Assembly (NCBI GenBank): GCA_949293555.1
Contig: CASFDV010000001.1
Span: 138,590 to 202,589, forward strand
Reading direction: 5' to 3'
DNA length: 64,000 nucleotides
DNA from: an uncultured Bacillota bacterium
GTDB lineage: Bacteria; Bacillota_I; Bacilli_A; RFN20; CAG-826
A program made the translations under genes and the position numbers. The notes under the pieces are model-generated. The model did no database searches. It was not told the origin of the DNA and worked only from the letters and a program-made list of their open reading frames with translations. Positions 52,104-64,000 of the stretch are shown here, piece by piece. Each line of letters begins with the position of its first letter. Within the stretch, counting starts at the first letter, position 1.

Positions 52104-54239
52104 CTAGCCCCTCTTCCCCGACGTTCCAAAGGAAAGGGGGATCAAGGAAAGCCCAGCGGTCAGGATGGTCAATCCCGTGTCCCCGAACACCGCCGCCCAG
52201 AGAGGAAAGCCTGTCCCGAGGGCAAGGGAGGCGCACATGATGGCAAGCTTAAGGAGAAGCGTCAGGGCAAGGAGGAAGTAGGCCATCCCCCGCGTCTTCC
52301 GAGAGATCCGAAGGGCCGAGGCAAGGGAAGATGGATCGTCTTCCATGAGAAGGACGTCGGCGGATTCCATGGCAAGCCCGGACCCGAGACCTCCCATGGC
52401 GATGCCGCAGTCGGCGAGTGCGAGGGAGGCCGCGTCGTTGATCCCGTCCCCCAGGTATCCGAGGGTTTTCCCTTTGGGAAGGGATAGCTTCGCCTCGCGG
52501 AGGGCCTCCGCCTTTTCCTCGGGAAGGAGTCCGCCCATGACCTTCCCGATCCCGAGGTCATGCCCGGCCTTCTCGGCCATCTCGGGACGATCCCCCGTGA
52601 GAAGGAGGCTTCCGATGTTCCGGGAAGAAAGCTCCTTGAAGAGCGGCTTGCTCCCGGCCTTATAGGCGTCCTGGAGGACCACGCATCCCCTGTATTGCCC
52701 GTCGACCGCAAGGTGGACGTTCGTCCCGGAGGAAATGTTCTCTGCGGAAATCACCTTCTTTTCGAGGAAAGAGGCTGTTCCTGCGTAGATATCCTTGCCG
52801 TCCATGGCCAGATGGATGCCATTTCCAGGAATTTCCTCGTAGTTCCGGATTCTTTCAACGGAATTCGCGGGAAGGTACTCATGGAATGCCTTCGCGATCG
52901 GGTGCGAGGAACGGGACTCGGCGATCGCAATCGTCCCCAGGAGCTCCTCCTCCGATATCCCGAGGGGCCTCGCTTCCGCGATGGAGAAGCGCCCCTCGGT
53001 GAGGGTCCCCGTCTTGTCCGTGGCAAGAAGCCCAAGCGAAGCGAGCGCGTCCACGTACTCCGTGCCTTTAAGGAGGACGCCGCCCTTCCCCATAGCCCCC
53101 ACTCCGGAGAAGTAGCAAAGGGGCACCGCGAGGACGATCGCGCAGGGGCAGGAGATGACGAGGAGGGAGAGGGCGACCTGCCCCCAGCGGGCCCACACCA
53201 TCGGGTCCCCCGCCCCAAGGGCGAGGGAGGGAACCACCGCGATCAGGATGGCGATCGCCATGACTAGGGGCGTGTACCACCTCGAGAAGCGGTCCACGAG
53301 CTTCTCGGTCCTCCCCTTCTCGCGCGTCGCCCCCTCGACAAGCTCAAGGATTCGGGCGCTCGTGGAGTCCCGGTAGTCCTTCCTCGCCTCGACCTCAAGA
53401 GTTCCAGTCTTCAGGATCGCCGAGCTGACGACCTCGTCCCCCTCCTTCGCAAGGCGGGGGGCGAACTCCCCGGTGAGGCTCGAGAGGTCGATCTCTCCCT
53501 CGCCCTTGAGGACGATCCCGTCCGCGGGGATGCTGTCGCCGAGCTTAACGAGGAAGCGGTCGCCCGAGCGAACCTCCTCCAAGGGGATGTCCCTCGTGCC
53601 GCTTTCCGTGATGAGATGGGCTACCGCCTTCCTCATGCCGAGGGCCTTGAGGACCGCGTCATGGGACTTCCTCGTGGCAAGGTCGCCGAGGATCTCCCCC
53701 ACCTGGTAGAGGATGACGACGAGGACCGCGTCGAAGGCGGGATCGTAGTCCCCCGAGAGGAGGGGCAGGAGGAAGGCCCCGAGGGAGGCGGTGGACATAA
53801 GGAGGGCTTCCCCGAATATGTCCTTGCCGCGGAGGATGCCCCGGATGGCCTTGTAGAGAAGGTCCGCCCCGGAGATGAGCCAGGCTCCCGCCATCATGGC
53901 CATGAAGGGCCAGGCCCCGTAGTTCTCCGCAGGGAGAAGGAAGAGGCCCAGGAGGGCGATGAGGAGCGAGAGGAGAGCCCTTGCTCCCGCGACAAGGAGC
54001 GGCATGTACTTTTCCCACGGCCTCGCCTTCTCCTCCATCTCATGGAGGCGGCAATCCGGCTCGGCCTCCCTCATGAAGGACTCCGCCTCCTCGCGGGTGA
54101 GCCCGGAGGAAATGAGGAGGGTGCCGCCAAGATAGTCGAGTCTCGCCTCCTCCACCCCGGGCGCGGAACGAAGGGCCTCCTCCGCCTTGAGGGCGCACTC
54201 CGCGCAGTCGAGCCCGCTCACGCGGTACGTCTTCTTCAT
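52104..54239 (-). CDS. P1B-type metal-exporting ATPase (Zn/Cd/Pb-type)
   Basis: A heavy-metal pump of the inner membrane, 711 residues. N-terminal HMA domain with GLDCAECA; membrane metal site SCPCA (about 363) typical of Zn/Cd/Pb pumps; phosphorylation site DKTGT (about 407), the HP motif in SSHPIAKAF, and GDGIND (about 598). The SPC motif plus an HMA with CxxC favours ZntA/CadA over copper pumps (CPC). The start overlaps the arsR stop (ATGA), so expression follows the regulator. Confidence 0.93.
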   Translation of the reverse strand: MKKTYRVSGLDCAECALKAEEALRSAPGVEEARLDYLGGTLLISSGLTREEAESFMREAEPDCRLHEMEEKARPWEKYMPLLVAGARALLSLLIALLGLFLLPAENYGAWPFMAMMAGAWLISGADLLYKAIRGILRGKDIFGEALLMSTASLGAFLLPLLSGDYDPAFDAVLVVILYQVGEILGDLATRKSHDAVLKALGMRKAVAHLITESGTRDIPLEEVRSGDRFLVKLGDSIPADGIVLKGEGEIDLSSLTGEFAPRLAKEGDEVVSSAILKTGTLEVEARKDYRDSTSARILELVEGATREKGRTEKLVDRFSRWYTPLVMAIAILIAVVPSLALGAGDPMVWARWGQVALSLLVISCPCAIVLAVPLCYFSGVGAMGKGGVLLKGTEYVDALASLGLLATDKTGTLTEGRFSIAEARPLGISEEELLGTIAIAESRSSHPIAKAFHEYLPANSVERIRNYEEIPGNGIHLAMDGKDIYAGTASFLEKKVISAENISSGTNVHLAVDGQYRGCVVLQDAYKAGSKPLFKELSSRNIGSLLLTGDRPEMAEKAGHDLGIGKVMGGLLPEEKAEALREAKLSLPKGKTLGYLGDGINDAASLALADCGIAMGGLGSGLAMESADVLLMEDDPSSLASALRISRKTRGMAYFLLALTLLLKLAIMCASLALGTGFPLWAAVFGDTGLTILTAGLSLIPLSFGTSGKRG

Positions 54240-54538
54240 AGGCCCTCCTCCAGGACGTGCTCGTGGACGATGGAAAGAAGGGCGGTCACATGCTGGTCTG
54301 CCAGGAGGTAGTAGACGTTCCTGCCCTCGCGCCTCGTCGTCACCAGGCGCGCCTTCTTCAGCACCATCAGCTGGTGGGACACGAGGGACTGGCTCGCCCC
54401 GACCTCGCGGACGATCTCGGATACGTTCTTCTCCTCCCCCGAGATCGCATACAGGATCTTGAGCCTCGTGGAGTCGCTGGCGATGTTCAGGAGGTGCTCC
54501 ATCCGGTCGATGATCTTGTCTTCAGGCACTCTAGACAT
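54236..54538 (-). CDS. ArsR/SmtB-family metal-sensing repressor
   Basis: A 100-residue winged-helix repressor. The DNA-binding region ISEVREVG-like helix (SEIVREVGASQSLVSHQL) and REGRNVYY wing are typical; the C-terminal DQHVTALLSIVHEH carries Asp/His residues as in the alpha-5 zinc site of SmtB/CzrA. It controls its own operon with the downstream metal ATPase through palindromes at its promoter. AAGGAG precedes the ATG. Zinc-type sensing is inferred from the alpha-5 ligands. Confidence 0.9.
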   Translation of the reverse strand: MSRVPEDKIIDRMEHLLNIASDSTRLKILYAISGEEKNVSEIVREVGASQSLVSHQLMVLKKARLVTTRREGRNVYYLLADQHVTALLSIVHEHVLEEGL

Positions 54539-54665: not shown

Positions 54666-55220
54666 CTAGAGGATGTCGATCTCGGAGAAGTCGAGGTCGA
54701 CGGGAGTGACGCGCCCGAAGAAGAGCGTCTCGACGCGCACGATCCCGTTCTCGCGGTCGAGCTTCGTGATGGTGCCCTCGGTTCCCTCGAGGGCGCCCCC
54801 GATGATCTTGACCCGGAGCCCGACCTGGTAGCGGTCGTACATGCTCGCGTCGACGATGCCCATCCTCTTGAGGACGGGCTCGATCTGCTCCCTGGGGACG
54901 GGGGTGGGCTTCTGCCCGCCGCCGGAGGAGCCGGCGATGCCGGTGACCCCGGGGGTGTTCCGGACGATGAACCAGCTCTCGTCGGTCATGACCATCTCGA
55001 TGAAGAGATAGCCGGGGTAAAGGTTCACCTTCTTGGTCTTCCCGGTCGGGATCCCGTCCTTGAGGACAGGGACCTCCTGCTCGCAGATGAGGATCCTCTG
55101 GATGAGGTCCTCCATCTTCATGGAGACGCGCCTCTTCTCGAGGTTCTCCTTCGTCTTCGCCTCGTGCTGGGCGTAGGTGGTGACGACGTACCACTGCTTG
55201 TCGGCTAGCTGCTCAGGCAT
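54666..55220 (-). CDS. nusG: Transcription antitermination factor NusG
   Basis: Binds RNA polymerase and couples it to Rho or ribosomes. The N-terminal NGN domain starts with KQWYVVTTYAQHE and contains LYPGYLFIEM and FIVRNTPGVTGI; the C-terminal KOW domain is GLRVKIIGGALEGTEG. It has 184 residues. It starts one base after the secE stop. Unlike the usual arrangement, rplK does not follow; a metal-efflux operon and an unknown membrane protein lie in between. Confidence 0.96.
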   Translation of the reverse strand: MPEQLADKQWYVVTTYAQHEAKTKENLEKRRVSMKMEDLIQRILICEQEVPVLKDGIPTGKTKKVNLYPGYLFIEMVMTDESWFIVRNTPGVTGIAGSSGGGQKPTPVPREQIEPVLKRMGIVDASMYDRYQVGLRVKIIGGALEGTEGTITKLDRENGIVRVETLFFGRVTPVDLDFSEIDIL

Positions 55221-55221
55221 C

Positions 55222-55419
55222 CTACATTCCTCCGAACGCGTCCTTCAGCTGCTGGATGATCGATCCGGCGGCGAGGTCCTCGAGGGCAAGGCAGATGGCG
55301 ACGAAAAGGGCGACGCAGACGACGACGAGGATCGTCGCCCAGAGCTTCTCCCTGCTCGGCCAGCGGATGCGGCGCGCCTCGCGCGCCACCTCCTTCATGT
55401 ACTTGATGGGTGGGGTCAT
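55222..55419 (-). CDS. secE: Preprotein translocase subunit SecE
   Basis: A 65-residue single-helix SecE of the SecYEG channel. The amphipathic segment KYMKEVAREARRIRWPSREK is the conserved cytoplasmic helix and is followed by one transmembrane segment. It lies between rpmG and nusG in the order usual for Bacillota. Confidence 0.93.
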   Translation of the reverse strand: MTPPIKYMKEVAREARRIRWPSREKLWATILVVVCVALFVAICLALEDLAAGSIIQQLKDAFGGM

Positions 55420-55446
55420 ACGGACGAACTATACTCCTTCCCTTTC

Positions 55447-55593
55447 CTATTTGCTCTCCTTATGGAGAGTGTGGCGGTTGCACTTAGGGCAGAACTTCCG
55501 GATCTCGAGGCGGGACTCGCTGTCCTTCCTCCTCGTCACCTGGTAGTTCCGGGAGAGGCACTCCTCGCAAATCAAAAACCTCTTCTCTCGCAT
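55447..55593 (-). CDS. rpmG: 50S ribosomal protein L33
   Basis: A 48-residue L33 read from the minus strand, start ATG at 55593 with GGGGAGG upstream. It keeps two CxxC pairs (CEEC and CPKC), so it is the zinc-binding form. The C-terminal [10 protein letters not shown] is typical. It heads the rpmG-secE-nusG operon behind its own promoter. Confidence 0.92.
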
Positions 55594-55653: not shown

Positions 55654-56751
55654 CTACAAGACAGGCTCGTAGACCGCGTAAAGGTCGAGGTCGTCCATCA
55701 CCGGGGTGAGGGAGGTGAAGTGTCCGGTGCTGGGGCCGATCTCCTCCTCGGTGTACCAGCCGAGGAACTCATGGCCGTCGAGGACGCATTCCGGGATCTC
55801 GCCCGGGAAATAGCTCCCGTGCACCACCTCGAAGGAGGTGGGGCGGGCGGGATCGACGAACGTCCCCTCCCCCGGATGGAAGGTGACCACGTGGCGCCGT
55901 CCCTCTATATCCCCCGCGGAAGTGCCCTCGAGCACCATCTGGAGCACCCATCCGGCCTCGGTCTTCAGGTAGATCGCGCCGCTGGAGGTGTTGAGGTGGA
56001 AGTCCCCGACCCTGCCGGAGGAGGGAAGGGGGTCGCCGTTGGAGACGTGCCACTCCGTCGCGTGGGGCACGGGGAAGGTGAGGCGCTGGCTGAAGCCGGA
56101 GTCGAAGGTGATGAGGAGGACGTAGTTCTCCCCGTCCTCGTCGACGCCGAGCTCGATGTTCTGGATGCCCTCGCCGCGGATGCTTTCCATCGAGAGGGAG
56201 ACGCGCTGCTCGCTGCCGTCAGACATCGCGAACACGAGGACGAGGTTCCCCTCCTCCATGAGGGAGGTCACGCTTTCGATCCCGACGCCGGACTCCCCCT
56301 TGGGAATCCCGAAGCTCGTCGTCGGCATGTCCGGGTCGGTGTAGAAGATCTCGACCGTGGTGAGCCCCGTCTCGGGGTCCCTGGCCACGTCCACGTGGTC
56401 GATCCCGACCCCGTCCTTCCCCTGGACGATGGGGACGTCGATCGTCACCGGGAGGCGCGAGGGATCGTCATAGGTGATGGTCACCCGGAGGAGGTTGCTC
56501 TCCGCGTTCAGGGCGGTCTCGATGTTGGCGATCCCGACCCCGTCCTCGCCCTTGGGGAGGGTGATCGAAAGGGGCGGGACGTTCTTGTCGTCGAAGGTCA
56601 CCTCGAGGACGGTCTCCCCGTTCTCGTTCACGGAGGTCCCCATGCTCTGGATGAGATAGCCCTCGCTTCCGAGGTTCAGGAAGCCGCAGGAGCTGAGGGG
56701 CAAGGCCCCGAGGAGGGCGAGGAGCGCCCCCAGCACGATGTTCTTCTTCAT
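55654..56751 (-). CDS. Repeat-containing surface lipoprotein
   Basis: A 365-residue lipoprotein: signal peptide ending LPLSSC (Cys about 22), five tandem units of about 40 residues each opened by a Gly-rich GxxGVGI-type turn (GEDGVGIANI, GKDGVGIDHV, GESGVGIESV, GEGIQNI, and a first, weaker one at GSEGYLIQSM), then a GDFHLNTSSGAIYLKTEAGW motif seen in tail-fibre-like proteins, and a C-terminal InlB/Flg_new-type repeat (VTFHPGEGTF to LYAVYEP). Built for extracellular binding. Its ATG overlaps the stop of the beta-helix gene. Ligand unknown. Confidence 0.8.
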   Translation of the reverse strand: MKKNIVLGALLALLGALPLSSCGFLNLGSEGYLIQSMGTSVNENGETVLEVTFDDKNVPPLSITLPKGEDGVGIANIETALNAESNLLRVTITYDDPSRLPVTIDVPIVQGKDGVGIDHVDVARDPETGLTTVEIFYTDPDMPTTSFGIPKGESGVGIESVTSLMEEGNLVLVFAMSDGSEQRVSLSMESIRGEGIQNIELGVDEDGENYVLLITFDSGFSQRLTFPVPHATEWHVSNGDPLPSSGRVGDFHLNTSSGAIYLKTEAGWVLQMVLEGTSAGDIEGRRHVVTFHPGEGTFVDPARPTSFEVVHGSYFPGEIPECVLDGHEFLGWYTEEEIGPSTGHFTSLTPVMDDLDLYAVYEPVL

Positions 56752-59198
56752 AACTTACCTCCGCGATTCATGATGAGGGAGACGTCGGGCGACTTCCCGA
56801 AGGTCTCGGGGACGCCCTCGTAGGTTCCGCTCGTGAGGAAGCGGAAGGGATGGAAGCCCGCGGCCATGGGCACGCAGCGGGCGATGACGGGGGCGAGTAG
56901 GTCCCCGATGTCGCTCCCGGCGGGGGCGAGGCCCTCCCCGGTGATGGAGCTCCTGGCGAAGTCGATCGAGATCTCTTCCCCGATCCCGTCGTCCTCATGG
57001 ACGAGGAGCGAGTCGTTCCTCCCGCCCCCGTAGTAGCCGGCGACAGGGCAGAGGTAGATGTCCTCCTCGCCTTCCTCCCCGCCTTCGGACGGCACATGAT
57101 AGCTGTAGCCGAGCCGCTCGGCCTCCGCCAGGAGGAGCGCCTTGATCGGGAAGTAGCTGTCGATGGGGATGCGGGGGACGGTCTCGCCGCTCGCGGTGCC
57201 CAGGATCAGCCCGAGGAAGTCCCCGATCCTTTCCTCGATGAGGCAGCTCGCGTCGATCGTCTCCACGTCCTTCCAGTCGTAGAAGCGGCAGTCCCCCTTG
57301 AGGGCGACCTCGCTCGCGCGGGAGGTCCCGCCCACCTGGTCGGGGACGATCGAGGGGAAGGGGATATCGAACTCCGTGAAGATGGAGAACACGTCCTGGA
57401 TGAGGGAGGGGAGGCCGTTATAGAGGAAGGGGCCGTTGAAGAGGGAGTCGAAGGCGATCGGGAAGAGGCCGGACCTCCCGAAGAGGGTGTCCTCCACGAC
57501 GATCCTGGCGGGCTCGAGCCCGGGATTCCCGTCGAGCGCCTCCTGGATGAGCATCGCCGGCTCCAAGGTCCCTTCGGGATCATCCCCCTCCTGGAGCCCG
57601 AGGGCCTCGTTGAAGAGGCGGTCGGCCGCCCCGTAGGAGCGGTCCATGAGGCCGGAGATCGCCCCGCTGTAGTAGTCGCCCTTGTGCTGGTAGGTGACCC
57701 TCTTCTCCGGATCGGTCGGGGCGAACTCGTCGGAACCGACCTTCATGAGGAACTCGCGGGAGTTCTCCATCAGGCAGTTCCTCACGAGGAGCCCGTCCGC
57801 GTCCATCGCCCTGAGGCACGTCCTCCCGTAGCGGAGGAAGGAGTTCTGGATGGTGATGTCCTCGCCCTTGAGGTCGACGACGCTGCCGGCGTAGCTGAGG
57901 TCATATAGGTTCGCGAGATTGTCCGTGTTCTGGAGGCGGACGTCGTCGATGAGGATCCCGTCCCCTTCCACGTAGAAGCCGGAGTTGTCCTGGCCGAACG
58001 CCTTGATGATGGGCGTGTCGATGAGGCCGATCGAGACGAGGGTTAGGGGCCCTTGGAAGAGGTCCTCCTCCCCCGGCTCGATGAGGCCGGAATAGTCGTC
58101 GTACTTCCCATGGTTCGGGTAGCAGAGCTCCTGCATCGAGATGGCGAAGCCGTTCCCGAAGAAGTCGTCCCGGACATGGACGGCGGCGATGACCTCGAGC
58201 CTCTTCCGGAGGATCTCGGGGTCGTTCCCTTCCTCCTCCTCCACGTACTGGCGGATATATCGGTCGTTGTAGGTCGTGGGGAAGCGGTAGACGTCCTCGG
58301 CGAAGGAAAGCATCTCCTGCCTGGCGAAGTCATAGCGGCCGAAGAGGCGCGTGTTCTCCGCGAGGAGCTCCTCCACGTAGCGCCCGTTCTCCTGGCGGTA
58401 GGTGTTCTTGAGGGAAAGGAGGTTCCGCTGGAGGCAGACGGGGTCCCCGTCCTCGCTCTTGTTGGTCGCCAACATCAAATCGTCGTAGTCGTAGACGTTG
58501 ACCGCGTCCTCCTCGACAAGGAAGCGGTACTCCTCCTCGACGAAGGGCATTTCCTTGAGGCGGAAGCGGACGTAGCTCTCCCCCGCCCCGTGGATTTCGA
58601 TGATTCCGTCTTGGAACTGCAGGTTTTCGCTAAGGTAGACGAGCTGGGCGCTGTCGCCCATGATGGTGCTGAGGGCCTCGGTCTCGAGCTCGATCCTCGC
58701 ATAGGTCTTACGCCCTTCCTCGTCGAAGTCGTACTCCCCGTAGCGGCGTAGCTCCCCGACCATCTGCCCCGAGGAAGGGGCGGAGGCGTCGTTGATGAGG
58801 ATCGCCCCGTCCTCGTAGATGAGGGCGCGGAGCGAGCGCGAGACGGTGTTCTTCTCGTTCCGGCAGGTGAGGCGGACGTTCCCCTCCTCAAGGGCCTGGA
58901 GGTAGAAGGAATCCCCGGCATGGGAGATCGCCGCGCATTCCGTCTCCTCCCCTTCAAGAGAAGAGACCTCCCAGACGAGGTCGTTCCCCTCGCCTAGCTC
59001 CACGGCGGGGTCGTAGATGGGCTCCGCCTCGAGGAGGTAGCCTTCCTCCCTCACCTGGAAGCCTTCGTTCTCGCGGTAGTCCCAGCGGATGCCGGAAATG
59101 TCCACGGGAACGGTGTTCTCGAGGATGATGATCGCCCCGAAGGCGAGGATGGCCACCGCGAAGGGGGCGACGAGGAGCACGCCGAGCGTCTTCTTCAT
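56748..59198 (-). CDS. Large membrane-anchored protein with beta-helix-like centre
   Basis: An 816-residue protein with one N-terminal membrane helix (about 6-28) and no lipobox, so the body is extracellular. After an acidic N-terminal half there is a region (about 415-490) with short strands such as GILIDDVRLQNTDNL, VDLKGEDITIQNSFLRYG and DGLLVRNCLMENS that look like rungs of a right-handed beta-helix. No catalytic motif is evident. It is flanked by ABC transporter and lipoprotein genes with ATGA overlaps at both ends. I do not recognise a named family. Confidence 0.7.
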   Translation of the reverse strand: MKKTLGVLLVAPFAVAILAFGAIIILENTVPVDISGIRWDYRENEGFQVREEGYLLEAEPIYDPAVELGEGNDLVWEVSSLEGEETECAAISHAGDSFYLQALEEGNVRLTCRNEKNTVSRSLRALIYEDGAILINDASAPSSGQMVGELRRYGEYDFDEEGRKTYARIELETEALSTIMGDSAQLVYLSENLQFQDGIIEIHGAGESYVRFRLKEMPFVEEEYRFLVEEDAVNVYDYDDLMLATNKSEDGDPVCLQRNLLSLKNTYRQENGRYVEELLAENTRLFGRYDFARQEMLSFAEDVYRFPTTYNDRYIRQYVEEEEGNDPEILRKRLEVIAAVHVRDDFFGNGFAISMQELCYPNHGKYDDYSGLIEPGEEDLFQGPLTLVSIGLIDTPIIKAFGQDNSGFYVEGDGILIDDVRLQNTDNLANLYDLSYAGSVVDLKGEDITIQNSFLRYGRTCLRAMDADGLLVRNCLMENSREFLMKVGSDEFAPTDPEKRVTYQHKGDYYSGAISGLMDRSYGAADRLFNEALGLQEGDDPEGTLEPAMLIQEALDGNPGLEPARIVVEDTLFGRSGLFPIAFDSLFNGPFLYNGLPSLIQDVFSIFTEFDIPFPSIVPDQVGGTSRASEVALKGDCRFYDWKDVETIDASCLIEERIGDFLGLILGTASGETVPRIPIDSYFPIKALLLAEAERLGYSYHVPSEGGEEGEEDIYLCPVAGYYGGGRNDSLLVHEDDGIGEEISIDFARSSITGEGLAPAGSDIGDLLAPVIARCVPMAAGFHPFRFLTSGTYEGVPETFGKSPDVSLIMNRGGKL

Positions 59199-60796
59199 AC
59201 GTAGTCCACCCTCATGCGCAGGAACAAGGAGGGGAGCCTCCAGCGAAGGAGCAGGAGGAGCGCCCCCATGAGGAAGAGGGGGATGAGGAACTCGACGAGG
59301 TAGAGGAGGGGGACCGCCACCCCGAGGAACGTCATGAGGAAGTGCAGGAGTGCGAGGAGGACGGGGAGGAGGATGCTATAGAGGGCGAGGAGCGAGACCC
59401 CTCCCCTGCCTCCTTCCCCGAGGCGCCGGAAGTCGTCGAGGGCGCCCAGCAGGTTCAGCGAGACGATGAAGAGCGAGCCCGTCCCGAGGATCGAGAAGAA
59501 AACGTGCACGGGAAGGAGGGAGAAGCCGAGGAGGACGAGGGAAGTCACGAGGAGCGAGACCAGGGACACCGAGGTGGAGACCAGGAGCTTCGCGAGGAGC
59601 TGCTCTCCCGGCGGCACGGGGATTTCCTTCATGAGAATGCGCCCGCTTCCTTCGCGGGAGACCCCGTCCGCGCTCGCCCCGGAGATCAAGGACGCGAAAA
59701 GGAGCACGAGGAAGATGAGCACGCCGTTGATGAGCTCCGGGAAATAGGCGAGGAACATCCCCATCCCGTCCTGGAGGATCCCCGAAAGGCTCTCGATGAC
59801 GACGAAAGCGAGGAAGGGCTGCATGATGAGAAGCGAGGTATAGCTGAAGAGATAGGAGCTGTCGCGGAAGAGAAGGACCCATTCCTTCTTCAGGAGCGAG
59901 AGCATCCTGCTCCTGGGAAGGCGGGCCGGGCGCGCTCCCCGCGCCCCTTTCTCCTTCCGTCCCTTCTCGAGCCTCCCCATCAGGAAGGAGAGGATGTAGA
60001 AGCCGAGGACGAGAAGCAGGAGGGAGGCCCCGAGGAAGAGGCTCACCTGGCCGGCGGCGTTCCCGTCCCCCGTAAGAAGGGCGAGGTAGCTCCCCGCGGG
60101 GAAAAGGTAGGGGGAAGCCCCGTTGAGGGACTGGAGGAAAGGCTCGCTGAAGTAGCTGTCGAGCTCCGATCCCGCGAGAAGGTCGAGGAAGAGGTTCAGC
60201 ACTTCGCGATAGACGAAGCAGAGGCCGACCACGAGGACCGAGGCAAGGGCGAACTGGAGGACCTTGTGTCTCCTCATCACCTCCATCAGAAGACCATATG
60301 GGCCAAGGAGCATCGTCAGGAGGCCGAGGCTCGAGAAAGAGGCCAGGGCCGGGTAAAGGGCCGAGAAGACGTAGTAGATGGCCGTCTGGCCCCTGGCGAT
60401 CCCGTAGGCGACGAGGGCCGGGAAGCTGAGAAGGAAGAGCGAGACCACCAATTTCGTGTAAAAGAAGGCGGCTTTCGCAAGGATTCTCTCATCCCTTGAG
60501 ATAGGAAGGGGCGAAAGGATGAGCCGGTCCTCGGGCCGCTCGAGCGCCCGGTAGGAGGCGGGGAGCGAGGCCAAGGAGGAGGCGAGGGTCGCAAGGAACA
60601 GGTAGAGGACCAGGAAGTCGTAGGTCCCGTAGTCGCTGAAGGAACGGAGCTTCGCGTCAAGGCCCCAGAAGAGGTAGCCGACGAGCAGCATGAAAAGCCC
60701 GGCGGCCAGGAGCTTCAGGGCCAGGGAAAACGCCAGGCGCCAGCCGCGCTGGGTCCAGCCGGAACGGATCTCCTCGAGGAGGAGGGAGAGGGTCAT
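59195..60796 (-). CDS. ABC-2-type exporter membrane subunit
   Basis: A 533-residue permease with about 11-12 predicted transmembrane helices in two halves joined by a basic linker (about 270-290: GRLEKGRKEKGARGARPA). This is a large ABC-2-like membrane domain. It is translationally coupled to the upstream ATPase and the downstream beta-helix gene by ATGA overlaps. It may export or assemble the surface proteins encoded next, or another substrate; the sequence does not tell. Confidence 0.8.
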   Translation of the reverse strand: MTLSLLLEEIRSGWTQRGWRLAFSLALKLLAAGLFMLLVGYLFWGLDAKLRSFSDYGTYDFLVLYLFLATLASSLASLPASYRALERPEDRLILSPLPISRDERILAKAAFFYTKLVVSLFLLSFPALVAYGIARGQTAIYYVFSALYPALASFSSLGLLTMLLGPYGLLMEVMRRHKVLQFALASVLVVGLCFVYREVLNLFLDLLAGSELDSYFSEPFLQSLNGASPYLFPAGSYLALLTGDGNAAGQVSLFLGASLLLLVLGFYILSFLMGRLEKGRKEKGARGARPARLPRSRMLSLLKKEWVLLFRDSSYLFSYTSLLIMQPFLAFVVIESLSGILQDGMGMFLAYFPELINGVLIFLVLLFASLISGASADGVSREGSGRILMKEIPVPPGEQLLAKLLVSTSVSLVSLLVTSLVLLGFSLLPVHVFFSILGTGSLFIVSLNLLGALDDFRRLGEGGRGGVSLLALYSILLPVLLALLHFLMTFLGVAVPLLYLVEFLIPLFLMGALLLLLRWRLPSLFLRMRVDYV

Positions 60797-61611
60797 AGGT
60801 CCCCCCTTCCCTGGATATGGAGGAAGATCCGGCGGAGCTCCTTCCTCTTGAAGGGCTCGAGGGCGAAGTCGATGAGGGAGGCGATCCTCCCCTCCTTCAG
60901 GATGGCGACCCTGTCGCAGGCCTCAGCGACGAGCTCGATGTTATGGGAAGTGAGGAAGATCGTCTTCCCGGACTTCACGTACTGCCGCATCATCGCCATG
61001 AGGGTCTCGTAGGCCATGATGTCGAGGCCGACCGTCGGCTCGTCCATGACCCAGAGGAGCGGGTTATGGATGAGGGAGCTCATGAGGCGGAGCTTCTGCT
61101 TCATGCCGTGGGAATAGCCGCCCACGGGGCGGGCGAGCTCTTCCTCGGTGAGGTCGAACTTGGTCTTGAGGAAGGCGAAGTTCCTCTCGAACCCTTCCAC
61201 GTCCATGTCGTAGCTGGAGGCGATGAACTCGATGAACTCGTTCCCGGTCATCAGGTCGTAGACGAGGGGCTCGCTCGGGACGTAGCCGAGCTGGCCCTTG
61301 ATCTCGAGGGGGTATTCCTTCTCGTCGAGCCCGAACACCTTGATGGAGCCGGCATCGTATTCCTTTAGCCCGACGAGGCAGTCAATGAAGGTGGACTTGC
61401 CGGCGCCGTTCTTCCCGAGGAAGCCGAAGCACTCCCCCCTCCTGACGGAGAAGGAAAGCCCCTTCAGCACCTCGTGGTCCCCGTAGGACTTATGGACGTC
61501 CTCGACGAGGACGGCTTCCTTCGGGAGCTCGTTCTTCAGCACAAGCTCGTCGAAATCGATGCGGGGAGCCGCGATTTTCTTGGTTTTCTTGAATCTATCC
61601 AGGAATCCCAT
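60793..61611 (-). CDS. ABC transporter ATP-binding subunit
   Basis: A 272-residue ATPase of the ABC-2 exporter type: Walker A GKNGAGKST (about 68), signature GGYSHGMKQKL, Walker B WVMDEPTVGLD, and H-loop LTSHNIE. An extra N-terminal stretch of about 30 residues (MGFLDRFKKTKK onwards) precedes the ABC core. GGGAGA lies upstream of the ATG, 3 nt after the previous stop. It pairs with the permease that follows. Confidence 0.92.
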   Translation of the reverse strand: MGFLDRFKKTKKIAAPRIDFDELVLKNELPKEAVLVEDVHKSYGDHEVLKGLSFSVRRGECFGFLGKNGAGKSTFIDCLVGLKEYDAGSIKVFGLDEKEYPLEIKGQLGYVPSEPLVYDLMTGNEFIEFIASSYDMDVEGFERNFAFLKTKFDLTEEELARPVGGYSHGMKQKLRLMSSLIHNPLLWVMDEPTVGLDIMAYETLMAMMRQYVKSGKTIFLTSHNIELVAEACDRVAILKEGRIASLIDFALEPFKRKELRRIFLHIQGRGDL

Positions 61612-61614
61612 GCT

Positions 61615-62892
61615 CTATCTCCCCCAGAAGGAAAGGATGAGGATGTCCCCGCCCGTGCCGATCGAGGCGGGAATCCGCGCGAAGCGGGAGGCGCAGTGCG
61701 GGCACTCCCTCTCCTCCCCGGGCCTCGTCCCGGGAATCCGCCCCCCGCAGACGGGGCAGTTCCTGAGCGAGCCCTTGTAAGGGATGAAGGTGGCGAGGCT
61801 TGCCAGGAAGCTCCTGCACTGCCCTTCCATCTCTTCCTCGGGAAGGAGGAGGAAGGCGTTCCCTTCCCCAAGGGACCCGCTCGTCATCAGGCGGTAGGAA
61901 TCGTCCCTATCCGTCCCATCGAGGAGGATCTTCCTCGTGGCCTCGTGCCCCTTGTAGGAGCAGAAGAAGCGAAGCTCCTCCCCGGAAAGCGACACTTCGA
62001 CCTTCACTCCCCTCCTGGTGAAGGAGAAGGGCACGAGGCCAAGCTTCCCGTCCTTGAGGTAGAGCGAGACGTCGGCCTTCATCCTCATCTTCCCCTTGAG
62101 GACCCTTTCCATGGCGAGGATGAAGCGGACGTCCCTTTCCACGGGACTCATCTTCGAGGCGTCCCTCCGGTTCAGGAGGTAGCGGTAAACCTTCTTGTAG
62201 AGCGGATGATGCAGAAGGACGTTCGTCGGAAGGAGCGTCTCCGGCTGCCGTTCGCCCCGGAGGGAACGGTAGAAGCGGCTCCCGCGGATCCCGTCGATCC
62301 GGCGGAGGAGCTTCCTGGAGGCTTCCTCCTTCTTCGCGGATTCCCCGCGTTCCTTGAGGGCGCGCCCCACCCTTGCGGAGTGCTCGTCCATGTCGATGAG
62401 GAAGGATTTCTCGCCGAAGACGGCCTTTTCGCGGAGATAAAGGGACTCGATGGACTCAGGTCCCCTCGTGCTTTCCTGCACGGAGGAGAGGACCTCGGAG
62501 CGAAGTAGGCGGATCGCCCGGATGGTCAGGAGGTTCTCGTAGAGCCTCATGTCATCCTCGTAGCGGATCGCGTGGACGTACTCCGGGAGCATGCCCGCGC
62601 CAGGCTTCCTCCTCCAGAGGGAAGGATCCCTCATGGTCCTGAGGAAGCTCTCGGGCGGGAGGGCGCCGGATAGCTCGCTTCTCACGAGCGCGTCCTCCTC
62701 CTTGGCGCGGTAGAGGGGCTTCCTCGCAATGCCCTCGAGGGCGTCCAGGAGCAACGACCATTCCCTCTCCTCCCGGGACGAGGAAAGGCGCTCCTCCTTC
62801 CTGACGCCCAGGAGGCGGTTCCGGAGGACCCTCGCCCCGAGCGTTTCCCCCTCCAGGAGAGGGGAGGACGTCTTCTTCGAAGGAAGCGCCAT
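61615..62892 (-). CDS. DUF2357/McrC-like protein with C-terminal zinc ribbon
   Basis: A 425-residue protein. The central region (HAIRYEDDMRLYENLLTIR, then LLPTNVLLHHPLYKKVYRYL) resembles the DUF2357 part of McrC-like partners of McrB ATPases, which regulate the AAA ring. The C-terminus carries a CPVCGG...CPHC zinc ribbon (about 385-405) in place of the usual PD-(D/E)xK nuclease; no nuclease motif is seen. It follows the McrB-like ATPase by 6 nt. Family assignment is by pattern and by partner, so moderate. Confidence 0.6.
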   Translation of the reverse strand: MALPSKKTSSPLLEGETLGARVLRNRLLGVRKEERLSSSREEREWSLLLDALEGIARKPLYRAKEEDALVRSELSGALPPESFLRTMRDPSLWRRKPGAGMLPEYVHAIRYEDDMRLYENLLTIRAIRLLRSEVLSSVQESTRGPESIESLYLREKAVFGEKSFLIDMDEHSARVGRALKERGESAKKEEASRKLLRRIDGIRGSRFYRSLRGERQPETLLPTNVLLHHPLYKKVYRYLLNRRDASKMSPVERDVRFILAMERVLKGKMRMKADVSLYLKDGKLGLVPFSFTRRGVKVEVSLSGEELRFFCSYKGHEATRKILLDGTDRDDSYRLMTSGSLGEGNAFLLLPEEEMEGQCRSFLASLATFIPYKGSLRNCPVCGGRIPGTRPGEERECPHCASRFARIPASIGTGGDILILSFWGR

Positions 62893-62898
62893 CTTCCC

Positions 62899-63999
62899 TT
62901 AGTTGAATCTCCTCAGGTAGTGGGCGATGAGGGCGCGGGACTCCGGGAAGCTGTTCTTCCCGTACTCGGAGGCGATGAGCTTCTCAAGCCCGCGGAGGCC
63001 TTCCCCGACGTACTCCTCGAAGCGGCCCTCGAGCTTGGCGAGCACCTTGCGGGCGAACATGAAGTCGATCGCCTCCTCCTTCGTTCCGCCGGCGGATACG
63101 TAGGTGGGGACGAAGAGCTCGATCTGGTTCATGATGCGGTTCCCGAAGGCGAGCTCGAACTTCTCGTAGCAGTAGGAGGCGAGGCGCTGGATCCTCTTCC
63201 TGTCCTGGCTGTCGAGGAGGTCCTCCTCCTTCTTCCAGGCGTTCTCGAAGAGGGACAGGAGCCCCTGGTAGGAAAGGGAGACCGGCGAGGATTCGCCCGC
63301 TTCCTCGAAGGGGACGTTCTGGTCGCTGAAGGAGATGACGATCGCGCGGTCGTACACCTTGTCGGTGATCGTGTAGGTGCTGTCGTCCTTGTTCGCGGTC
63401 CCGATGAACCAGGTGGTCGCGGGGATATGGAGCCTTCCCTCGTCCAGGTGCATCGGCGGCTCGAAGCCATAGGGAAGCTGCATGATGTCGAGCGTCCAGT
63501 CCTCCATCGGGTACTCCATGATGGAGAGGAAGTCGGCGAAGTAGTACTCGACGCGGGCGATGTTCATCTCGTCGAGGACCATGATGTTGACCGCCCTCTC
63601 GCGGAAGCTAGCCCGGTAGAGGCGCTTCAGGAAGGGGGTCTCGCTGTAGGAGCGGCTGAAGTCGTTATAGAAGCCGAGGAGCGAGGTCCTGTCCCGCCAG
63701 GTGGCCTGGACGGGGGCGAAGAAGCTCTTCTCCCCGATGAAGGAGCTGAAGTAGCGTGCGAGCGAGCTCTTGCCGGTGCCGGAAAGGCCCTCGAGGATGA
63801 TGAGGCGGGAGGCGCTGAGCCCGGCGAGGAAGGCGCGGATGGAGTGGATGTCGTAGTAGAGCTTCTCTTCCTTGGCGAGGTAGCGGCGGAACCTCTCCGC
63901 GAGCTCGCGGAGGGAAATCTTCCCGTCGTCCTGGTACTCCTTCCCTTCCTCGTTGAGCTCCTGCACCTCGATCTGGCTGAGGCCCGGGAACACCTGGGT
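62899..63999 (-). CDS. McrB-like AAA+ ATPase, 5' end outside window
   Basis: An AAA+ protein of the McrB/MoxR branch; the frame is open to the window edge, so the N-terminus is missing and 366 residues are seen. Walker A GLSGTGKSS, Walker B VLDEMNIARVEYYFADFL (the extended McrB form), and sensor-1 WFIGTANKDDSTYTITDKVYDRA-like segment are present. McrB proteins use GTP or ATP to drive a partner McrC nuclease; here the partner lacks a nuclease, and the same operon continues into an ABC exporter and surface proteins. The role is unknown. Confidence 0.8.
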   Translation of the reverse strand, partial: TQVFPGLSQIEVQELNEEGKEYQDDGKISLRELAERFRRYLAKEEKLYYDIHSIRAFLAGLSASRLIILEGLSGTGKSSLARYFSSFIGEKSFFAPVQATWRDRTSLLGFYNDFSRSYSETPFLKRLYRASFRERAVNIMVLDEMNIARVEYYFADFLSIMEYPMEDWTLDIMQLPYGFEPPMHLDEGRLHIPATTWFIGTANKDDSTYTITDKVYDRAIVISFSDQNVPFEEAGESSPVSLSYQGLLSLFENAWKKEEDLLDSQDRKRIQRLASYCYEKFELAFGNRIMNQIELFVPTYVSAGGTKEEAIDFMFARKVLAKLEGRFEEYVGEGLRGLEKLIASEYGKNSFPESRALIAHYLRRFN

Positions 64000-64000
64000 C

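Follow-up and report, generated by a model that had tools for sequence, protein, structure and literature searches.

Analysis of a 64,000-nucleotide stretch of an uncultured Bacillota genome (contig CASFDV010000001.1; hereafter the window) identified an operon that couples a McrB-like AAA ATPase and a DUF2357/McrC-like protein to a SipW-type signal peptidase, short secreted proteins, an ATP-binding cassette (ABC) transporter, a beta-helix protein and a lipoprotein. This operon probably encodes one envelope machine making or controlling a surface filament, in which a membrane-tethered, nuclease-less McrBC-type motor would serve SipW-dependent assembly. Six of its genes lie in the window as minus-strand open reading frames with inter-gene gaps of 6, 3, -4, -4 and -4 bp, an order and spacing already described by a sequence-only reading of the window. 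That reading had also supposed that further members might lie beyond the cut 5' end. In the neighbouring DNA past the window edge (L001, where a position equals the window position minus 55410) the ATPase gene is completed, and three genes on the same strand join the six, encoding the SipW-type peptidase and two short secreted proteins. The resulting nine-gene block is placed between sigH and rpmG-secE-nusG, and the genes most telling of its function, those for SipW and the secreted subunits, fall outside the window.

Signal peptidase and secreted subunits

The peptidase (L001:9302-10357, on the minus strand, as are all genes of the block; 351 residues) matches TIGR02228 with 58.3 bits (cut-off 51.85), and is the sole protein of the window's genome to exceed that cut-off. 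Its SipW-type catalytic residues, Ser145, His200 and Asp219, were invariant in 18 sequences. The two secreted proteins are fibre-subunit-like (L001:10481-11278, 265 residues; L001:11301-12110, approximately 269 residues). An aromatic-small-x-aromatic pattern ends the signal segment in 135 of 175 subunits (77%), compared with 79 of 669 (12%) other proteins with an N-terminal transmembrane segment from the same loci; in TasA, the P2 and P2' positions of the cleavage site are occupied by Trp and Phe, respectively (PMC10269814). The secreted subunits thus carry a TasA-like cleavage-site pattern, and would be trimmed by the operon's own peptidase.

Measured against a close relative, the subunits were the fastest-evolving products of the operon, with a ratio of non-synonymous to synonymous substitution rates (dN/dS) of 0.33-0.42; the remaining operon genes, which we term the machinery, gave values of 0.02-0.16 and are under purifying selection. 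Exposed proteins often evolve fast. A structural model of a subunit, with a predicted local distance difference test score (pLDDT) of 84.5, formed a beta-sandwich with helices; pilus subunits and the TasA fibre were among its structural matches, all of them at Z values too low to establish a TasA fold. The fibre-subunit and SipW families have further, weak matches elsewhere in the window's genome, at G000:C2:414583-414999 and G000:C4:9733-9966. Several operons with the window's gene order also possess an extra secreted protein of 838-988 residues, encoded between sipW and the AAA gene (L092:7002-9968, L095:7326-9980, L099:7444-9960), for which no Pfam match was found in the member tested, that of L092.

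The McrB-like ATPase and its DUF2357 partner

The window holds the C-terminal part of the ATPase (62899-64000), with an AAA_5-like match and an NxD motif in the sequence GTANKDDS; the whole gene (L001:7489-9291) encodes 600 residues, with four to six hydrophobic segments occupying residues 1-170 and an AAA domain at approximately 245-600. The AAA core aligned with E. coli McrB over 170 columns (hhalign probability 91.8%, E 7e-7), and Walker A, Walker B and the sensor Asn were invariant among 25 relatives. Nearly all of 124 sequences carry this shortened NxD form (as NKDD, NRDD or NNDD) in place of the canonical NxxD signature of McrB, which is NTAD in the E. coli protein. No DNA-binding domain was detected in an NCBIfam scan of the whole protein or a Pfam scan of the part in the window, and a sequence search of the PDB with the AAA profile gave no matches.

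The partner protein (61615-62892, 425 residues) ends in a CPxCG...CxxC zinc ribbon. Querying the window's genome with the Pfam DUF2357 profile returned no matches, as did the controls, so family identity was examined through relatives and structure. PF09823 (DUF2357) was found in 7 of 25 family members (best E 3e-13). An AlphaFold2 model (pLDDT 75.8) had as its four best PDB matches the McrC chains of solved McrBC complexes, namely 6ut5_G (Z 9.5 over 137 residues), 6ut7_G (8.8), 6hz4_M (8.2) and 6ut6_G (8.1), with the next match at Z 5.5. As judged from this model, the DUF2357 protein has the McrC fold. Sequence-level searches were less informative: a single-profile hhalign comparison of the family with E. 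coli McrC was negative, and a PDB sequence search with the DUF2357 profile yielded zinc-ribbon chance matches only. The family alignment showed no conserved triad corresponding to the PD-(D/E)xK nuclease residues of McrC; the invariant residues of the C-terminal part are the four Cys of the zinc ribbon, one Pro and one Tyr only.

These two proteins bear directly on a rival explanation, defence against phages or competitors, under which the surface proteins would sense attack and the internal McrBC-like pair would be the effector. Most relatives of McrBC belong to type IV restriction, and the profile of the PADLOC candidate PDC-M26A was matched by 25 of 25 AAA members (best E 9e-43), although this match spans only part of the profile. 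Conversely, the DUF2357 protein lacks conserved nuclease residues, no other nuclease was recognised in the operon, and none of the PADLOC models was convincingly matched by the DUF2357 protein.

Conservation and mobility of the block

A scan for the AAA family, using one genome per species, recovered 372 relatives. Among the best 80, which were kept, most possess the order fibre protein(s)–SipW–AAA–DUF2357–ABC ATPase–permease–beta-helix–lipoprotein. This order, for whose six window genes a search of related genomes had been put forward as a check by the sequence-only reading, occurs in approximately 75 distinct loci from Bacilli and Clostridia-labelled genomes. Across 63 complete loci, the seven machinery genes all showed mutually correlated distance matrices (r 0.45-0.87; best of 200 permutations approximately 0.2).

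In an RpoB tree, nine Clostridia-labelled genomes split from their Bacilli kin with support of 100/99; in the AAA tree, by contrast, Clostridia-labelled proteins intermingle with those of Bacilli and Mollicutes. Because the AAA proteins mix while the RpoB tree separates the lineages, these topologies suggest transfer between lineages. Within the genus of the window's genome, rlmB-sigH-rpmG-secE-nusG are contiguous in 11 genomes, representing the empty site. Four of these (G024, G123, G141 and G209) have a DUF2357 homologue elsewhere, and the whole block was present there in all three neighbourhoods read. Given an empty site and a whole block elsewhere within one genus, the block moves as a unit.

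The proposal, made from the window alone, that the genes form one machine is thereby strengthened: the unit is kept across deep lineages, occupies different sites within one genus and shows correlated distance matrices. Chance juxtaposition of two unrelated operons has nothing in its favour beyond the usual clustering of bacterial genes; the retention of the order across deep lineages, in approximately 75 distinct loci, the translational overlaps between genes and the occurrence of the whole block at different sites make this explanation extremely improbable, and we rejected it on conservation.

AAA–DUF2357 pairs and a second operon architecture

We gathered AAA–DUF2357 pairs irrespective of their neighbours, obtaining 127 distinct pairs. 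A SipW-like peptidase lies within 9 kb of 121, and recognised secreted subunits lie near 111; since the pair profiles were built from the window's own type, these counts apply to close relatives, not to McrBC at large. Pairs standing apart from surface genes, the arrangement which the sequence-only reading had named as refuting its proposal, were sought here. Among the six pairs without SipW, three (L052, L133 and L168) are cut upstream by contig ends, leaving L115, L166 and L169. The L166 pair adjoins an AbiEii-like ATPase gene and the L169 pair a phosphoesterase. The L115 pair sits amid genes for type IV pilin-like proteins, of which 4 were tested and all 4 matched PF07963. At this locus, from an Acholeplasmatales genome (L115:2932-19698), there are at least five such genes, of unusual length (145-1233 residues). 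A second, far more divergent pair, comprising an AAA protein of 923 residues and a DUF2357 protein of 524, was observed directly upstream of an operon with the window's gene order (L044:106-2877, the same as L129).

Forty further loci, picked by weak DUF2357 similarity alone, were also read. The possibility that these weak matches represent ordinary restriction systems was rejected, as most of the 40 loci hold a second SipW-linked operon comprising several secreted proteins, an AAA protein, a DUF2357 protein, a SipW-like peptidase, an EAL-domain phosphodiesterase and a nucleosidase-like protein, with a GGDEF-EAL protein added in many. Its AAA proteins, of approximately 505 residues with a membrane segment and, after it, an apparent coil, form one clade in the AAA tree; its DUF2357 proteins span 450-1170 residues and are directly followed by the peptidase. 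The nucleosidase-like protein (L230:10549-11286 and equivalents) also gives a weak match to Fib, the fibril protein of the Spiroplasma cytoskeleton (NF033570, E 0.002).

The second architecture lacks ABC genes, such that the core shared between the two architectures consists of subunits, AAA, DUF2357 and SipW-like peptidase. This bears on the alternative that the window's operon is mainly an ABC exporter for envelope remodelling or polymer export, with the McrBC-like pair regulating it and the SipW proteins accessory. Of all genes in the window's architecture, that for the ABC ATPase is best conserved (dN/dS 0.019; mean identity 56%), and the ABC genes directly follow the pair with gaps of 3 and -4 bp. 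However, the second architecture has the pair, peptidase and subunits without ABC genes, indicating that the ABC part is not core and rendering this alternative improbable.

The same survey bears on defence. A patchy distribution (34 of 346 genomes of the class), a block shifted between sites, exposed subunits that evolve fastest and a related pair adjoining an AbiEii-like ATPase gene would all suit a defence system. Against these stand the processing peptidase and secreted subunits to which the pair is almost always coupled, and the enzymes of cyclic di-GMP (c-di-GMP) in the second architecture, c-di-GMP being a signal by which many bacteria control their biofilm matrix. The secreted subunits that recur with the pair are of three kinds, namely two SipW-type sets and, at one locus, proteins resembling type IV pilins. 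From this recurrence, and that with c-di-GMP enzymes, we favour the building of an appendage and consider defence unlikely. The sequence-only reading had named both a surface complex and defence; its surface complex is the part that we retain.

The ABC transporter and surface proteins

Downstream of the pair are encoded the ABC ATPase (60793-61611, 272 residues), an ABC-2-like permease (59195-60796, 533 residues, approximately 12 hydrophobic segments), a beta-helix protein (56748-59198, 816 residues) and a lipoprotein (55654-56751, 365 residues). The beta-helix protein has a single N-terminal membrane anchor and a weak immunoglobulin (Ig)-like match at its N-terminus; no anchor beyond this one transmembrane segment was seen. 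PF13229 was found in 3 of its 22 relatives, and a PDB sequence search with the family profile returned weak matches only, to nanobody Ig domains and a polygalacturonase. Several genomes encode a longer paralogue of approximately 900-1070 residues away from the operon (G660:C4, G664:C15, G666:C7 and G668:C1). The lipoprotein possesses a lipobox and GxxGxGI-type repeats, with a Listeria-Bacteroides repeat match just below its cut-off. Overall, the gene identities assigned from the window were borne out by the hhalign match of the AAA core to McrB, PF09823 together with the McrC fold, the ABC ATPase profile (3e-22), PF13229 and the lipobox; the profile match of the permease is weak.

A model for the operon and its implications

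Under the envelope-machine model, the McrB-like AAA ring would be held at the membrane by its N-terminal helices and act on the cytoplasmic face, stimulated by the DUF2357/McrC-like partner; membrane helices may have replaced the DNA-binding domain of the ATPase, and a zinc ribbon the nuclease of its partner. Hydrolysis of nucleoside triphosphate could then drive, gate or time the release and assembly of trimmed subunits, in the manner of pilus ATPases, and the ABC transporter, membrane-anchored beta-helix protein and lipoprotein may together serve in export, anchoring or capping. We infer from the evidence above that a filament forms, that the pair acts as a motor and what each surface protein does, and the same holds for the gating by the ATPase suggested in the sequence-only reading.

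Several points weigh against this model. The family has no characterised member, and the filament is a prediction from gene content. A Pfam and NCBIfam scan of 29 subunits gave no match to TasA/CalY or another fibre family, Foldseek with the subunit model returned nothing significant, and the alignment of that model to the TasA fibre (8aur_A; Z 4.1, root-mean-square deviation 6.7, 145 residues aligned, 17% identity) ranks under Ig-domain matches. Also to be counted are the PDC-M26A matches noted above and the shared ancestry that accounts for part of the distance-matrix correlation. Finally, no dedicated ATPase is known to be required for TasA itself.

More broadly, and tentatively, it is possible that a McrBC-type motor without DNA recognition or cutting became the cytoplasmic engine of an undescribed secreted-filament system, with at least two architectures (one with the ABC, beta-helix and lipoprotein genes, the other linked to c-di-GMP), carried in a block that moves between lineages and working also in wall-less Mollicutes, in which sortase-style wall anchoring is impossible. 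If so, a family interpreted almost entirely in terms of antiviral restriction would include a large branch that builds structures on the cell surface, and catalogues of defence genes (PADLOC PDC-M26) would list machinery for appendages under defence. SipW-processed filaments, for which no dedicated motor is known, would gain a source of energy in gut bacteria that are common and little studied, some of them wall-less.

Genes flanking the block

Directly downstream of the lipoprotein gene are the housekeeping genes rpmG and secE (55222-55592, minus strand), which mark the right border of the insert and lie outside the machine, followed by nusG (54666-55220). Right after nusG and ahead of rplK, at 52104-54538, the window encodes a P-type ATPase for heavy metals, of the E1-E2 type with an HMA domain, and a small regulator resembling ArsR; in G111 the same insertion also starts after nusG (L092:20139-21798).

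Comparison with known systems

The window's pair resembles McrBC type IV restriction systems, as in E. coli K-12 and Thermococcus gammatolerans, in the McrB AAA core, the McrC DUF2357 fold and the adjacency of the two genes. It differs in having NxD for NxxD, membrane helices for a DNA-binding domain, a zinc ribbon, no conserved nuclease residues and secretion genes as neighbours. The PADLOC entry PDC-M26A, a computational defence candidate only, shares the AAA match, with the DUF2357 partner unrecognised. Likeness to the tapA-sipW-tasA operon of Bacillus subtilis and to sipW-tasA/calY of B. cereus resides in a SipW-type peptidase encoded with short secreted proteins that have an aromatic-flanked cleavage site. 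These fibre operons, as described, are not known to include an ATPase, DUF2357, ABC or beta-helix gene, and the window's subunits, unlike theirs, matched no known fibre family by sequence.

The closest precedent is a 2024 census (PMC11090510), which in two sentences names a McrBC-related group, 'CoCoPALM', and ties it to signal peptidases and pilus assembly. The view, expressed in the sequence-only reading, that McrB/McrC-like pairs are known from defence and not from surface assembly is outdated in light of this statement. The CoCoPALM passages found in the main text of the census do not name SipW, ABC genes or c-di-GMP enzymes; our literature search found no follow-up to CoCoPALM, and nothing on the coupling of McrB or DUF2357 proteins to SipW seen here. 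As there described, the group shares with the window's operon an NxD-motif McrB-like GTPase with a membrane-bearing N-terminus, a DUF2357 partner and a signal-peptidase-family protein suggested as a pilus assembly factor. The census further describes coiled coils as 'usually' present on both McrB and McrC homologues. The second architecture closely fits this description, with a membrane segment and an apparent coil on the AAA protein and the peptidase directly after DUF2357. The window's architecture, in contrast to the same description, appears to have a multi-helix membrane region, with four to six hydrophobic segments, in place of an FtsB-like segment with a coil. Its DUF2357 protein is short and has a zinc ribbon, and its operon extends to the ABC transporter genes and those for the beta-helix protein and the lipoprotein. 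If our model is correct, the two-sentence CoCoPALM proposal becomes a concrete, testable parts list. The window's architecture is a variant of the CoCoPALM-like kind, sharing its core and differing in predicted membrane region, type of DUF2357 protein and the set of ABC, beta-helix and lipoprotein genes.

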